Origin: Terriglobia bacterium
Lineage (GTDB): Bacteria; Acidobacteriota; Terriglobia; Acidiferrales; UBA7541
Direction of reading: 5' to 3'
Assembly: GCA_020072805.1 (NCBI GenBank)
Contig: JAIQGC010000005.1
Location: forward strand, 35,902 to 99,901
Length of the DNA: 64,000 nt
Of this stretch, positions 603 through 7,047 are shown in pieces. A model generated the notes under the pieces. That model made no database searches, was not told the DNA's origin, and saw nothing but the letters and a program-made list of their open reading frames with translations. Positions within the stretch are counted from its first letter, which is position 1, and each line of letters starts with the position of its first letter. The translations under genes and the position numbers were made by a program.

Positions 603-1556
603 ATGGGAAAAGTGCTGGTGGTTGGGGGAGCGGGATATATCGGAGGGGCGGTGACGGAGCTGCTGGGAGCGGAGAAGATCCCGTTCACGGTGTACGACAG
701 CCTGGTGTACGAGCCGCACTATTTGAAGAAGGTGGACTTCATACGCGGGGACGTGCGGGACGCGGAGAGGTTGAAGGGGCTGCTGGCGGGATATACGCAT
801 GTGGTGTGGCTGGCGGCGATTGTGGGAGACGGGGCGTGCGAGGTGAACCGGGAGTTGACGGTGGGAGTGAATCAGGAGGCGGTGCGGTGGCTGGCGGAGA
901 ATTTTCACGGGAGGATCGTGTTCACGTCAACGTGCTCGGTGTACGGGCAGATGGAAGAGGAAGTGGACGAGGAGGCGGCGGTGGGGCCGCTGTCGCTGTA
1001 TGCGCAGACGAAGCTGGCGGCGGAAGGATTTTTAAAGGGGGAGAACAGTTTGATTTTCCGGCTGGGGACGGCGTTTGGAGTTTCGGATACGTATTCGCGG
1101 CCGCGCATGGATTTGGTGGTGAATTACATGGCGGCGAACGCGCTGACGAAGGGAGAGCTGTCGGTGTTTGGAGGGACGCAATGGAGGCCGCTGGTGCACG
1201 TGAAGGACATCGCGCAGGCGATCGTGCACAACCTGGAGAGGCCGGTGAGGGGAGTGTACAACGTGGCGGCGGGAAATGTGCAGATCAAGGATTTGGCGGC
1301 GGTGGTGAGCGGGATGACCGGGTGCAAGGTGAAGTACACGGAGCAAAAATTCCAGGACCAGAGAAATTATCACGTGAGCTGCAAGAAGGCGCTGCGGGAC
1401 GGAGTGTTTAATCCGCACACGATGAGGACGGTGCAGGACGGGGTGCGGGAGATTGCGGAGCTGGTGGGAGTGGGGCGGATCAAACAGACGGAGGATGAAG
1501 TGTATTTCAACGTGCGGCATGCGGAGAAGCTGAAAGCCTATGGACAATTCGCGTAA
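603..1556 (+). CDS. NAD-dependent epimerase/dehydratase (extended SDR)
   Basis: 317 residues. A nucleotide-sugar epimerase or dehydratase of the extended short-chain dehydrogenase family, acting in the cytoplasm on a nucleotide sugar. The N-terminal Rossmann motif GGAGYIGG is at residues 8-15; the catalytic Ser/Tyr/Lys set is visible as STCSVYG and YAQTK. The track start at 390 was rejected because it translates repeats; ATG 603 follows a GGGAGGGGGAG ribosome site. It overlaps the next gene by 17 nt and starts a polysaccharide cluster. The family is firm; the exact substrate (UDP-glucose, UDP-GlcNAc or a deoxysugar) cannot be read from the sequence. Confidence 0.85.
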   Translation: MGKVLVVGGAGYIGGAVTELLGAEKIPFTVYDSLVYEPHYLKKVDFIRGDVRDAERLKGLLAGYTHVVWLAAIVGDGACEVNRELTVGVNQEAVRWLAENFHGRIVFTSTCSVYGQMEEEVDEEAAVGPLSLYAQTKLAAEGFLKGENSLIFRLGTAFGVSDTYSRPRMDLVVNYMAANALTKGELSVFGGTQWRPLVHVKDIAQAIVHNLERPVRGVYNVAAGNVQIKDLAAVVSGMTGCKVKYTEQKFQDQRNYHVSCKKALRDGVFNPHTMRTVQDGVREIAELVGVGRIKQTEDEVYFNVRHAEKLKAYGQFA

Positions 1557-1998
1557 AGAGCCGCGACTGATCGCGGGGGGATTGGCGGTGGACGACCGGG
1601 GACAAGTGTCGTTCGTGAACGGGTTTGGGTTTGAAGGGGTGCGGCGATTCTATCTGGTGGAAAACTTTTCGACGGAAGTGGTGCGGGCGTTTCACGGACA
1701 CATGAAGGAAGAGAAGTTCGTGCTGGTGGCGGCGGGGTCGGCGATCGTGGCGGCGGTGCGGATGGATGACGCGGCGCGGCCGGACCGGGAGATGAAGCCG
1801 CAGCGATTTGTTCTTTCCGCGAGGCAGCCGCAGATACTGCATATTCCGGCGGGCTACGCGAACGGATTCCGGCCGCTGGAGGCGGGTACGAAGATTTTGT
1901 TTTTTTCGACGGCGACGCTGGAGGAGGCGAAGAACGACGATTTTCGATTTGCGCACGATTATTGGGGAGAGGGAGTGTGGGAAGTGGAACCGCGGTGA
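1540..1998 (+). CDS. RmlC-like cupin, sugar 3,5-epimerase family
   Basis: 152 residues, a single cupin barrel of the dTDP-4-dehydrorhamnose 3,5-epimerase type. The visible signature is a VRAFHGH segment (the histidine-containing strand expected in RmlC-like enzymes) and an LHIPAGYANGF segment matching the conserved IPxGxAHGF strand. It is shorter than classical RmlC (about 180), as seen in FdtA/WxcM-like cupins. It overlaps the upstream epimerase gene and is followed 28 bp later by a reductase gene, so epimerase, cupin and reductase are likely made together. The specific sugar is unknown. Confidence 0.75.
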   Translation: MDNSRKEPRLIAGGLAVDDRGQVSFVNGFGFEGVRRFYLVENFSTEVVRAFHGHMKEEKFVLVAAGSAIVAAVRMDDAARPDREMKPQRFVLSARQPQILHIPAGYANGFRPLEAGTKILFFSTATLEEAKNDDFRFAHDYWGEGVWEVEPR

Positions 1999-2026
1999 GA
2001 GGAACCGGGAAGGAGAGAAAAAAGTG

Positions 2027-2911
2027 ATGCGAGTGTTATTGCTGGGAGCCACGGGGATGCTGGGGAGCGCGGTATATGGAGTGCTGAAGGACAAGTGCGA
2101 GCTGGTGCTGGGGGTTCGCAACGAGGAGAAGATTGCGCTGCTTGACCAGGTATTTGGAAGAGCCGGCGGGGGGCGGAGAATTGTTCCGTTTGACGGCGCG
2201 GGCGTTTATCAGGACTACGTGAGCAAGCGGGGAGGAGCGAACGGATACTTCGGCGGATTCCTGAAGGCGGTGGGAGAGGTCGATTATGTGATCAACGCGA
2301 TCGGAGTGACGATTCCGTTTGCGCTGAGCGACCCGGCGCAGACTTTTTTCATTAACGGGGCGCTGCCGCATCTGCTGGCGCGGGAATTCGGAGAAAAGCT
2401 TATTCACATCACGACCGATTGCGTTTACAACGGAACAGAAGGTTTTCCGTACGACGAAAAGTCTCCCAAAACGCCGATGGACATCTACGGTCTCTCGAAG
2501 AGCCTGGGCGAGCCGGCGGAGTGTCTCACGATCCGCACCTCGATCATCGGCCGTGAACTGAACGGATTTACCGGGCTGCTGGAGTGGTTCCGGCGGCAGG
2601 AGGGGCAGACGGTGACCGGCTTCGCGGAGCATTACTGGAATGGGATCACCACGCAACAATTCGGGCGGATTTGTCAGCAGGTTATGGAGTCGCGCAACGG
2701 GTTTCCGCGGCGCGGCATTTACCACGTCTTTTCCACGCCGGTTTCGAAATACGAGATGCTGGTAGCGTTCCAAAAGAAGTACCGGGTCAAATGCACGGTC
2801 CGGGCGGAATACGACAAGAAGCTGAATCGAACGCTTACGACCTGCAGGGAACTCAACGAACAACTGAAGACGCCGCCTTTCCACGAGATGCTGAATGCGC
2901 TTCCCGAGTAA
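2027..2911 (+). CDS. RmlD-like nucleotide-sugar reductase (SDR)
   Basis: 294 residues. N-terminal GATGMLG nucleotide-binding loop, TTDCVYNG and YGLSKS catalytic-region motifs typical of dTDP-4-dehydrorhamnose reductase and the Cap5F/FnlB-type reductases. It probably reduces a 4-keto or similar nucleotide-sugar intermediate. The track start at 1808 is far upstream inside the cupin gene; ATG 2027 is preceded by AAGGAGAG. Its stop is 6 bp before the next gene. With a separate cupin upstream and a 2-epimerase downstream, the set resembles a split version of the Cap5F-Cap5G arrangement; that comparison is inference. Confidence 0.75.
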   Translation: MRVLLLGATGMLGSAVYGVLKDKCELVLGVRNEEKIALLDQVFGRAGGGRRIVPFDGAGVYQDYVSKRGGANGYFGGFLKAVGEVDYVINAIGVTIPFALSDPAQTFFINGALPHLLAREFGEKLIHITTDCVYNGTEGFPYDEKSPKTPMDIYGLSKSLGEPAECLTIRTSIIGRELNGFTGLLEWFRRQEGQTVTGFAEHYWNGITTQQFGRICQQVMESRNGFPRRGIYHVFSTPVSKYEMLVAFQKKYRVKCTVRAEYDKKLNRTLTTCRELNEQLKTPPFHEMLNALPE

Positions 2912-2917
2912 GTGACC

Positions 2918-4174
2918 ATGAAAAAACAATTCAGGCTCGTATCCCTGCTGGGAATCCGTCCAGACATTATACGCATGGGAAAGCTGCTGAATCTGCTGGA
3001 GCGCGGGCAGGCGGCGAACGGGTACCGGCATTTGTATGTTCATTCCGGCCAGCATTACGACGATTCGCTGGAAGGAATATTCCACCGGGAATTGGGCGTG
3101 CGGCGGCCGAAGTTCAATATGGGAACGGGAAGGACTTTGAAGAAGCGGGCCAAGACCGGCCATGTCTACCAGGCCGGCTACCTTTTTGAAAAGACCGCGC
3201 AAATGATCGAGCGATTGCGTCCCGACGCCGTCCTGTTCCTGGGAGACACGAATACGGTTCTTTCTTCGATCGTCGTGGCGAAACACAACATACCGGTGAT
3301 CCACGTCGAGGGCGGCGGGCGCAGCTTCGATTGGCGAATGCCGGAGGAGAAAAACAGGATCATCATCGATCATCTTTCGGACGTGATCTATTGCTATCTC
3401 GATCGCTATAAGCAAATTCTGCTCGCCGAAGGAGTGGCGGGACACCGGGTTGTTTCCGTGGGGAATATTATCGTTGATGCGCTGGAGAAGTTCCTGCCCG
3501 CGGCGCGGCAAAGGCCAATCCTGCGAAGCCTCGGTCTGCAGCCGGGGAAATATGCACTGTGCACGCTGCATCGGGAGGAAAACATCGAGAACCGGCAGAT
3601 TCTTGAGGAAAAAGTAAATGGTCTTCGGCAGCTCTCCCGTCAATTGCCTGTGGTTTTTCCCGTGATGCCCCGCGTGCGCGCCCGGCTTCGGAAGTACGGA
3701 TTTACGGACCGCCTGAAGAGTCCGGGGATCATTCTAACGCCGCCCTTGGGATTTCTGGATTTTCTCAAGCTGGAAGCGGAAGCGAAGATGATCGTCACCG
3801 ACAGCGGCACCGTTCAGGAAGAAGCCCTTCTTCTGGGCGTGCCCTGCCTGGTAACAAGGCGTTCCACCGAGCGCCCGGAAACAATCGCGGCGGGGGCAAG
3901 CATATTGGCGGAAGGGGATCTGTTTTCGAATGCCCAGCGGGTATTGCAAATGGAGCGTCATTGGGACCGCACGGTCCTGAATCCGCTTGGGGGAAGTCCG
4001 AGCGAGCGAATCTACGAGGACCTCTTGAATCGAATCAGGTCCGGCTATTTTGCGGAGTCGCGATGCCTGGCGATGCTCCAGGAGAATTCATTTGTTCGCG
4101 AGGCCTATGGGCTCACGCAGCGCAGCTTCAAGCGCCCGTTGCCGTTTTCCGAAGAAGCGTTGTGCGCCCGATGA
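2918..4174 (+). CDS. UDP-N-acetylglucosamine 2-epimerase family (WecB/FnlC-like)
   Basis: 418 residues, matching the non-hydrolysing UDP-HexNAc 2-epimerase fold. Visible family motifs are HSGQHYD, FLGDTNT, the SFDWRMPEE segment, TLHREEN and TDSGTVQEEA...TERPE near the C-terminus. The N-terminus reads GIRPDIIRM rather than the WecB GTRPEAIK, which is closer to the FnlC/Cap5G branch making N-acetyl-L-fucosamine precursors; this subfamily placement is inference. ATG 2918 is preferred over GTG 2912. It lies between a reductase and a broken WbuB-like transferase, supporting a role in an aminosugar of a surface glycan. Confidence 0.85.
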   Translation: MKKQFRLVSLLGIRPDIIRMGKLLNLLERGQAANGYRHLYVHSGQHYDDSLEGIFHRELGVRRPKFNMGTGRTLKKRAKTGHVYQAGYLFEKTAQMIERLRPDAVLFLGDTNTVLSSIVVAKHNIPVIHVEGGGRSFDWRMPEEKNRIIIDHLSDVIYCYLDRYKQILLAEGVAGHRVVSVGNIIVDALEKFLPAARQRPILRSLGLQPGKYALCTLHREENIENRQILEEKVNGLRQLSRQLPVVFPVMPRVRARLRKYGFTDRLKSPGIILTPPLGFLDFLKLEAEAKMIVTDSGTVQEEALLLGVPCLVTRRSTERPETIAAGASILAEGDLFSNAQRVLQMERHWDRTVLNPLGGSPSERIYEDLLNRIRSGYFAESRCLAMLQENSFVREAYGLTQRSFKRPLPFSEEALCAR

Positions 4175-4186
4175 GCAGACGGTGAT

Positions 4187-5354
4187 ATGAGAATTCTGAT
4201 CCTCGTTGATTGTTATGTCCCCAGCGTGAAATCCGGCGCCAGGCAGATCCGAGATCTGGCGGCCGAATTCCATCGCCAAGGCCATGAGGTTACCGTTATC
4301 ACTCCCAGCCACGAGATTGTAGATGAAGCGCAGGTCACCTGGGACGAGGGGACGCGCATCGTCCGGGTTAGAACAGGGAAGATCAAGGGGGTGGGGAGGA
4401 TCTGGCGCGCCTTGGAGGAGATTAGGCTTTCGGGCGTCGTGTGGCGCCGTGTCGGACGATTCCTGCTAGAGAATCCCGCGGATTTTATTGTCTTCTACTC
4501 GCCTACAATTTTCTGGAGCGCGCTCGTAAGACGCCTGAAGGCACTCTGGGGATGTCCCGCGTATCTGATACTGCGCGCAATACGAAGTTGCGGACAAGAT
4601 CGCAATCCAGTCTCCGGGAAACGCAGAATATTTCACGAAAGAATTTCCCCTGCGGGAATATCCATTGGAGGTGCTTTACAACTGGATGGCTCTGGAGGAT
4701 AGGGATCCGCCGGCCAGAGAGTGCCGCGGAAAGCTGGGGCTTCAGGATAAAGTGGTTTTCTTCTACGGGGGCAACCTGGGAGTCGCTCAGGATGTGGACA
4801 ATATTGTTCGCCTGGCTGCTGGCCTCGCCCCTTACGCGCATATTCACTTCCTTCTCGTGGGCGAGGGCAGCGAGGTGTCCCGGCTGAAAAGGCTTGTGGC
4901 GGAGAGAGCGTTGAACAATATCCAGATTCTGCCGCCGGTCGGGCAGCACGAGTATCTGGCCATGCTTTCGGAGTTTGATGTGGGCCTGATCTCGCTGGAC
5001 CGGAGGCTCACCACACATAACCTGCCAGGAAAGATGCTGGGGTATATGTACCGGGGGAAACCCATGCTGGCGAGCATCAATGGGGGCAATGACCTCTTTG
5101 ACCTGATAGAGAAAAACGACGCAGGCTTCTGTTTCAAGAATGGAGAAGACGACAGTCTGGCGGCTGCTGCGCTGAAGCTGTCCAACGACCCTGAATTGCG
5201 ATCCCGAATGGGCGCAAATGCACGCCGGCTATTGGAGCGGCAGTTTTCGGTTAACCGGGCCGCTCGTCAAATCACGGCCTTTGCCGCACGGGAGAAAGTG
5301 AAAACAGAAGAGATTCCCGTATTCCAATCTGCCGGTAACGAGTCGTTCTCCTAG
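4187..5354 (+). pseudogene. WbuB-like group 4 glycosyltransferase, broken by an internal deletion
   Basis: Two ORFs in different frames make one glycosyltransferase. The N-terminal frame (from ATG 4187) runs MRILILVDCY... to YLILR at 4562-4576. The C-terminal frame resumes at about 4578 as QYEVADKIAIQSPGN, then the EVLYNWM, FYGGNLG and LLVGEG segments, to 5354. WbuB-like proteins normally have about 28-30 residues (a DIFPxWA segment) between these two pieces, and they are missing here. The junction is inside ctgcgcgcaatac. The lost length is not a multiple of three, so the gene is out of frame. A real deletion or an assembly collapse would look the same. Confidence 0.8.
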
Positions 5355-5490: not shown

Positions 5491-7047
5491 ATGATTTGGG
5501 GAAGTGATCCACTTGTGTTTGGCGGGGGGCTATTGTGCGCGAGTCTGATCACCCCGCTGGTGCGGGACTTCGCAATGAGTCGCGGGTGGATAGACTCGCC
5601 CGGTAACGGGCGGCATATTCACTGCCATGCCGTCCCGCGACTGGGCGGGGTGGCCATTTATCTCTCTGTTGTCGGTGCTTTGGGCATCGCAAACATTCTT
5701 TTCGCGGTGACCGGCACTTCAGCCCCGTATTCATTCCGAACCATATGGACTCTGCTGGGTTCGGCTACGGCGGTCTTTCTGCTGGGCTTGTACGATGATC
5801 TGCGGCCCGTCAGTCCGTATTGGAAAATCATGATTCAGTCGCTCGCTGCAGTGTTTCTCTACATGGCTGGATTCAGGATATACAGGATGGATCTCCTGGG
5901 CTCCGGGCACAGTCTTAGTGCGGGGCTCGACCTGTTGCTGACGGTTCTCTGGGTGCTTTTGATCACGAATGCATTCAATTTGATTGATGGCCTGGACGGG
6001 CTGGCTGCCGGGTCCGCATTATTGTCGCTGGCTGTAATGTTTGTAGTGGCGCTGTTCCGGAATGATGCGACAGTGAGCGTCATGACGCTGGTGCTCGCTG
6101 GGGCGATGTGCGGATTCCTGCGCTTCAATTTTTATCCGGCAACAATATTTCTTGGCGATTCGGGCAGCCTGTTCATCGGATTTGTGTTGAGCGCCATTGC
6201 CCTGGCCGGATCGCAGAAGGCGACGACAGCGATTGCCGTGGCGATTCCGGTGGTGTCGTTCGGTCTTCCTGTCGTGGATGTTGCGCTTGCGGTTGTGAGG
6301 CGGCTCATTCGTGGCAAGCACCTTTTTGCGGGTGACACCGATCATATTCACCACCGTCTGCTGAAAAAAGGGTTTTCTCACCGGGAGGCGGTGATCCTTT
6401 TGTATGTCATTTCAGCGGGATTCGGACTGCTCAGTCTGTCCCTGCTGCACGGGGAGCACAGGATTGCTCTGGTATTGAGTGTAGTGGGGATCGGAGTGTG
6501 GTCTGGTGTTCGCTATTTGAGATATGCGGAAATATCCGAAGTGCAAAGCCTTTTTGCGACGCTCCTGCAGCGAAGAAGAATTCTTGCCAACAATCTTATT
6601 CTGCGGCAGGCCGCCGAGGCATTGGAGGCCAGCAGTAATTTCGAGGGGATCTGCAAGGTTGTGAAGGCGACTCTCGAACCTCTGGGTTTTGCCGGAGTGT
6701 GTTATCAGTTGCATGCGAAAAACGGCAATTCAAACGGGCTGTTTGTTCCCCTGCGAGACGATGGGAACGGCGGGCTTTGGCATTCCTGGGGTGGAGAGAA
6801 GGCGCGCAAGGCGGAATGGGAACTGCGGCTGGAACTGGCTCCGCTTGAGGCGCATAGCCTTGGCCGAGTGTCGCTATTCCGGCCGTCTTGTGATGAGCGC
6901 ATCTGTGTCGACAGTCATATTTTGAGTTCGACATTTCGGCTGGCACTGTCCGGCGCGGTGGAGCGAGCCCTGGCGAACGGGTCCACGCATGCAGGAGAAA
7001 AGAAAATGGCTGAGGTTGCAAGGGCTCATCGGGCGGCATCCGCGTAG
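5491..7047 (+). CDS. MraY/WecA-family undecaprenyl-phosphate sugar-1-phosphate transferase with C-terminal extension
   Basis: 518 residues. An integral membrane enzyme that would load the first sugar phosphate onto undecaprenyl phosphate for glycan synthesis. Motifs in order: PRLGGVAIY near residue 50, LGLYDDLRP, NAFNLIDGLDGLAAG, FLGDSGSLFIG and DTDHIHHRLLKKG, the family's magnesium and substrate loops, set among about ten hydrophobic helices. Residues from about 350 onward form a soluble extension with a GAF-like look, not part of classical WecA (about 360 residues). The start is ATG 5491 with CAGGAG upstream. It ends the polysaccharide cluster. Confidence 0.85.
   Translation: MIWGSDPLVFGGGLLCASLITPLVRDFAMSRGWIDSPGNGRHIHCHAVPRLGGVAIYLSVVGALGIANILFAVTGTSAPYSFRTIWTLLGSATAVFLLGLYDDLRPVSPYWKIMIQSLAAVFLYMAGFRIYRMDLLGSGHSLSAGLDLLLTVLWVLLITNAFNLIDGLDGLAAGSALLSLAVMFVVALFRNDATVSVMTLVLAGAMCGFLRFNFYPATIFLGDSGSLFIGFVLSAIALAGSQKATTAIAVAIPVVSFGLPVVDVALAVVRRLIRGKHLFAGDTDHIHHRLLKKGFSHREAVILLYVISAGFGLLSLSLLHGEHRIALVLSVVGIGVWSGVRYLRYAEISEVQSLFATLLQRRRILANNLILRQAAEALEASSNFEGICKVVKATLEPLGFAGVCYQLHAKNGNSNGLFVPLRDDGNGGLWHSWGGEKARKAEWELRLELAPLEAHSLGRVSLFRPSCDERICVDSHILSSTFRLALSGAVERALANGSTHAGEKKMAEVARAHRAASA

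Follow-up and report, generated by a model that had tools for sequence, protein, structure and literature searches.

A WbuB-like glycosyltransferase gene split by an 83-base gap within a putative surface-polysaccharide cluster of a Terriglobia bacterium

In the window, that is, the whole 64,000-nucleotide stretch of Terriglobia bacterium contig JAIQGC010000005.1 that was analysed, positions 4187 to 5354 constitute a single WbuB-like GT4 glycosyltransferase gene whose translation is split over two reading frames. The split is probably best read as an ordinary, recent null allele produced by a single deletion of about 83 bp.

The two reading frames and the missing segment

Translation of the first frame began at the ATG at 4187 (MRILILVDCY...) and continued up to 4576, where it ended in YLILR; past this position, the frame encoded 41 nonsense residues before the stop codon at 4700-4702. 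The second frame opened at 4578 with QYEVADKIAIQSPGNAEYF... and was stop-free to 5354, and the 3' frame from 4578 read QYEVADKIAIQSPGN up to the natural end of the gene at 5354. The initial annotation had described a WbuB-like transferase in two frames meeting after YLILR, and translation and DNA alignment agree with this, placing the exact junction at 4576^4577. The parts of the gene are as follows.

4187..4576, plus strand: 5' part of the GT4 gene, encoding the N-terminal acceptor-side domain, residues 1-130 (Pfam Glyco_trans_4_4 / Glyco_transf_4, PF13579/PF13439)
4576..4577, plus strand: deletion junction, at which 83 orthologue bases (28 codons, DIFPQWAV...EIE) are gone and the frame is lost (DNA and protein alignments)
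4577..4702, plus strand: out-of-frame tail of 41 missense residues and a stop (translation)
4578..5354, plus strand: 3' part of the GT4 gene in the shifted frame, encoding the remainder of the N domain followed by the C-terminal nucleotide-sugar-binding domain (Pfam Glycos_transf_1)

A close orthologue was present in 1 of the 35 other genomes of the genus (G007), on contig JAIQEV010000014.1 of Terriglobia bacterium SRVP_26, where it encodes 414 amino acids in an uninterrupted frame. The frame running through both glycosyltransferase domains is thus continuous in the orthologue and is lost at 4576^4577 in the window. The 5' part aligned with the orthologue without gaps at 80.8% amino acid identity; the 3' part, which matched PF00534/PF13692, was 76.6% identical and contained no internal stops, its first start-like codon in the open reading frame list being the TTG at 4665. 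In the DNA alignment, the whole gene had one 83-base gap, with a breakpoint ambiguous by 1 base (a G common to both sides), so that 28 codons of the orthologue are replaced by one base at the junction; this size and the lost sequence are read from the sole close orthologue (~80% DNA identity) and not from the organism's own bases. No further indels relative to the orthologue were found ahead of the C-terminal tail, and the blastn match was interrupted at the same junction. Measured against this intact orthologue, the gene therefore carries a disabling lesion, the 83-bp deletion plus frameshift, as expected of a pseudogene. The measured loss of 28 residues and 83 bases falls within the earlier estimate of 28-30 residues or 80-90 bp.

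Comparison with relatives, as the initial annotation had proposed, showed a segment of 28-29 residues at the junction site in all 24 intact relatives in protein alignments. These comprised the orthologue, 18 sequences from several phyla (L050-L067), 3 sequences from alignment A3 (L069, L070, and L072), and 2 relatives from the class (L129 and L130). With the segment present in 24 of 24 relatives, its absence in the window is far beyond chance. Among the relatives compared, DIFPQWAV marked the best-conserved nine-residue region of the family, a conservation that is overstated since D[IL]FPQ[WN]AV was one of the two patterns used in the contig search, which partly biased the motif. The motif in L129 and L130 (DIFPDWAVQ in the latter) was not created by the search, because these two were retrieved with the C-terminal half alone as the query, which does not include that segment.

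Two other relatives had irregularities of their own. In L068:1506-2640, from a Deltaproteobacteria MAG (HGW-Deltaproteobacteria-1), the same gene shifts frame near orthologue residues 283-294, within the C-terminal domain, reflecting either an independent disruption or a sequencing error. In L071:4001-4542, from a gammaproteobacterial MAG, a wbuB N-terminus remnant of about 49 residues precedes an intact wbuB-like gene and adjoins a stretch resembling the end of an epimerase gene; it looks like the scar of a partial duplication.

Predicted structure and loss of function

The presence of both domain types, an N-terminal Glyco_transf_4-type domain and a C-terminal Glycos_transf_1 domain, places the gene in GT4 with a GT-B fold. 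An AF2 model of the orthologue, for which 22 intact relatives were aligned, had a mean pLDDT of 91.2 and matched the GT-B enzymes BshA, MshA, WaaG, and PglA. In this model, the lost residues 131-158 sit between strands 125-129 and 165-168 of the N-terminal domain and comprise the loop that follows the first of these strands, a short helix, and the greater part of helix 147-162. The enzyme should therefore be inactive in this strain, as the most conserved loop and most of the following helix are removed and the frame is shifted, a combined loss that is predicted to abolish activity. Ribosomes would produce a 171-residue fragment with a nonsense end and, possibly, a 229-residue C-terminal fragment devoid of the acceptor domain.

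The open C-terminal frame, with its possible TTG start at 4665, also allows the notion of a working enzyme formed from two separately translated proteins, one per frame, or from frames joined by frameshifting. This is highly improbable, however: even rejoined halves would still be short of 28 residues, among them those of the most conserved motif and the greater part of one N-domain helix, the N frame ends in 41 nonsense residues, and a split at the corresponding place was found in none of the relatives compared.

Recent deletion or assembly artefact

Both halves bear the normal signature of purifying selection. The dN/dS ratios against the orthologue were 0.13 for the N half and 0.20 for the C half, compared with 0.11-0.16 for neighbouring genes, and no second lesion (other stops or frameshifts) relative to the orthologue was found in either half. 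These values bear out the earlier remark that the gene is well conserved on either side of the junction. Since both halves keep their coding character with no further stop or frameshift, the lesion is either recent or confined to the assembly. Of the two origins first proposed, deletion or collapse, a recent deletion with loss of frame is favored by the dN/dS values and the lack of other lesions, whereas collapse finds no repeats to drive it. No direct repeats were detected at the orthologue breakpoints or around the window junction, nor is the lost piece itself a repeat unit; because the orthologue breakpoints share one base and no repeat, repeat collapse is unlikely, with the proviso that the check used the orthologue and the window junction and the organism's own lost sequence may differ.

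An artefact of assembly or consensus, in which the population gene is intact and the 83 bp dropped out when gaps were closed, through a local misassembly, or because a minority variant was chosen, is possible but clearly the less likely origin. The assembly is a draft of 157 contigs, and the absence of other decay in the gene, with low dN/dS on both sides, also fits an intact gene that was misassembled. In addition, the orthologous segment has a somewhat higher G+C content (61%, versus 57% for the gene), and its fold is slightly more stable than those of shuffled sequences (z of about -1.8, with RNA parameters and mononucleotide shuffles). Against this, a direct repeat of k-mer size that could drive collapse was found neither in the orthologue nor near the junction, the surrounding genes are clean, and the segment was not found on another contig: searches of the organism's own assembly for the missing segment or a second gene copy gave nothing beyond the left flank itself and matches of 14-34 bases attributable to chance.

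In the predicted fold of the orthologue's nucleic acid sequence, bases just inside the left breakpoint paired weakly with bases beyond the right one, which may be a codon coincidence.

The background of broken genes was considered in two genomes, where the stretches compared held about 12 true orthologues, too few for an assembly error rate; the other rows flagged as broken in this comparison, one C138 row apart, look like antisense or overlapping open reading frames. A literature search on disrupted genes in metagenome-assembled genomes gave nothing.

The polysaccharide cluster and comparison with known systems

The broken gene lies in what its gene content identifies as a probable Wzx/Wzz-type surface-polysaccharide cluster, otherwise intact among the genes compared. 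Its nearest neighbors are the following.

1540..1998, plus strand: RmlC-like cupin sugar epimerase/isomerase gene, intact (PF00908)
2024..2911, plus strand: SDR / RmlD-like gene in an FnlB/WbjC-like position, intact (PF04321)
2912..4174, plus strand: UDP-GlcNAc 2-epimerase family gene (WecB/FnlC-like), intact, directly upstream (PF02350; TIGR00236 above cutoff)
5491..7047, plus strand: WecA/MraY-family polyprenyl-phosphate sugar-1-phosphate transferase gene, intact, directly downstream (PF00953; TIGR02380 below cutoff)

Synteny with G007 covered SLBB/Wza-like export, Wzi/PAP2, Wzz, NusG-like, Wzx-like, and GT4 genes, as well as the SDR, cupin, RmlD-like, epimerase, broken GT4, and WecA-like genes. 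Every syntenic gene compared read through against its G007 counterpart, with the sole exception of the broken GT4 gene. Upstream of the window, PAP2 phosphatase and Wzi capsule-assembly domains occupy one frame (L048:9115-11688), as they do in G007. In the WecA/MraY-like protein, the transferase region is followed by about 200 additional C-terminal residues, and homologues beside glycosyltransferase genes in L005, L008, and L130 likewise extend past this region.

Provided that the pathway follows its usual logic, the chain on the polyprenyl carrier would stop growing early, and the cell would then lose or alter an O-antigen- or capsule-like polysaccharide. The unfinished polysaccharide foreseen in the initial annotation can reasonably be inferred, because the sole close copy of the gene is broken in an otherwise intact cluster. 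As a special case of the null allele, with which its confidence overlaps, a real deletion in part of the population could have been selected, for example by phages that use the polysaccharide as a receptor. Such a population variant, by which a soil bacterium of the Acidobacteria type would turn off its surface polysaccharide under pressure from phages or grazers, is a doubtful proposition. It accords with the recent lesion and with the documented route to phage resistance through frameshifts in lipopolysaccharide glycosyltransferases, such as CDS2289 of Xanthomonas oryzae (PMC9143033), but the junction has no simple repeat tract for a reversible switch.

The null allele has little import beyond annotation, where the gene needs flagging as disrupted, and any prediction of the strain's polysaccharide from this cluster should wait for reads that confirm the junction. 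Should the deletion prove genuine and differ between members of the population, an uncultured soil lineage would offer a modest case from nature of polysaccharide loss.

The family label itself is broad. The best NCBIfam match was the WcaI family PRK10307, at 80.7 bits for the 3' part and 106.6 bits for the intact orthologue against a cutoff of 276; as even the intact orthologue falls far below this cutoff, the precise sugar cannot be assigned from the family match. The name WbuB thus reflects family resemblance and the neighboring epimerase and SDR genes only, a neighborhood that is only suggestive of L-FucNAc transfer to a lipid-linked acceptor.

Loss-of-function frameshifts are common in polysaccharide glycosyltransferases. 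The window gene resembles WbuB/WcaI-like GT4 enzymes in its domain order and its UDP-GlcNAc 2-epimerase family neighbor, but it is short of 28 codons and of the frame; the DIFPQWA segment of such enzymes (28-29 residues) is absent in the window and present in all relatives compared. The SRVP_26 orthologue likewise lies between the epimerase and WecA-like genes, at 77-81% amino acid identity, and differs in its uninterrupted 414-residue frame. Xanthomonas oryzae CDS2289 shares the frameshift in a polysaccharide glycosyltransferase and truncation in the N-terminal half, but there the lesion is a one-base insertion in a phage-resistant mutant (PMC9143033), whereas the window gene has an 83-bp deletion in an uncharacterised soil bacterium. 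The deletion in the window is one more case of the known loss-of-function frameshifts in glycosyltransferases.
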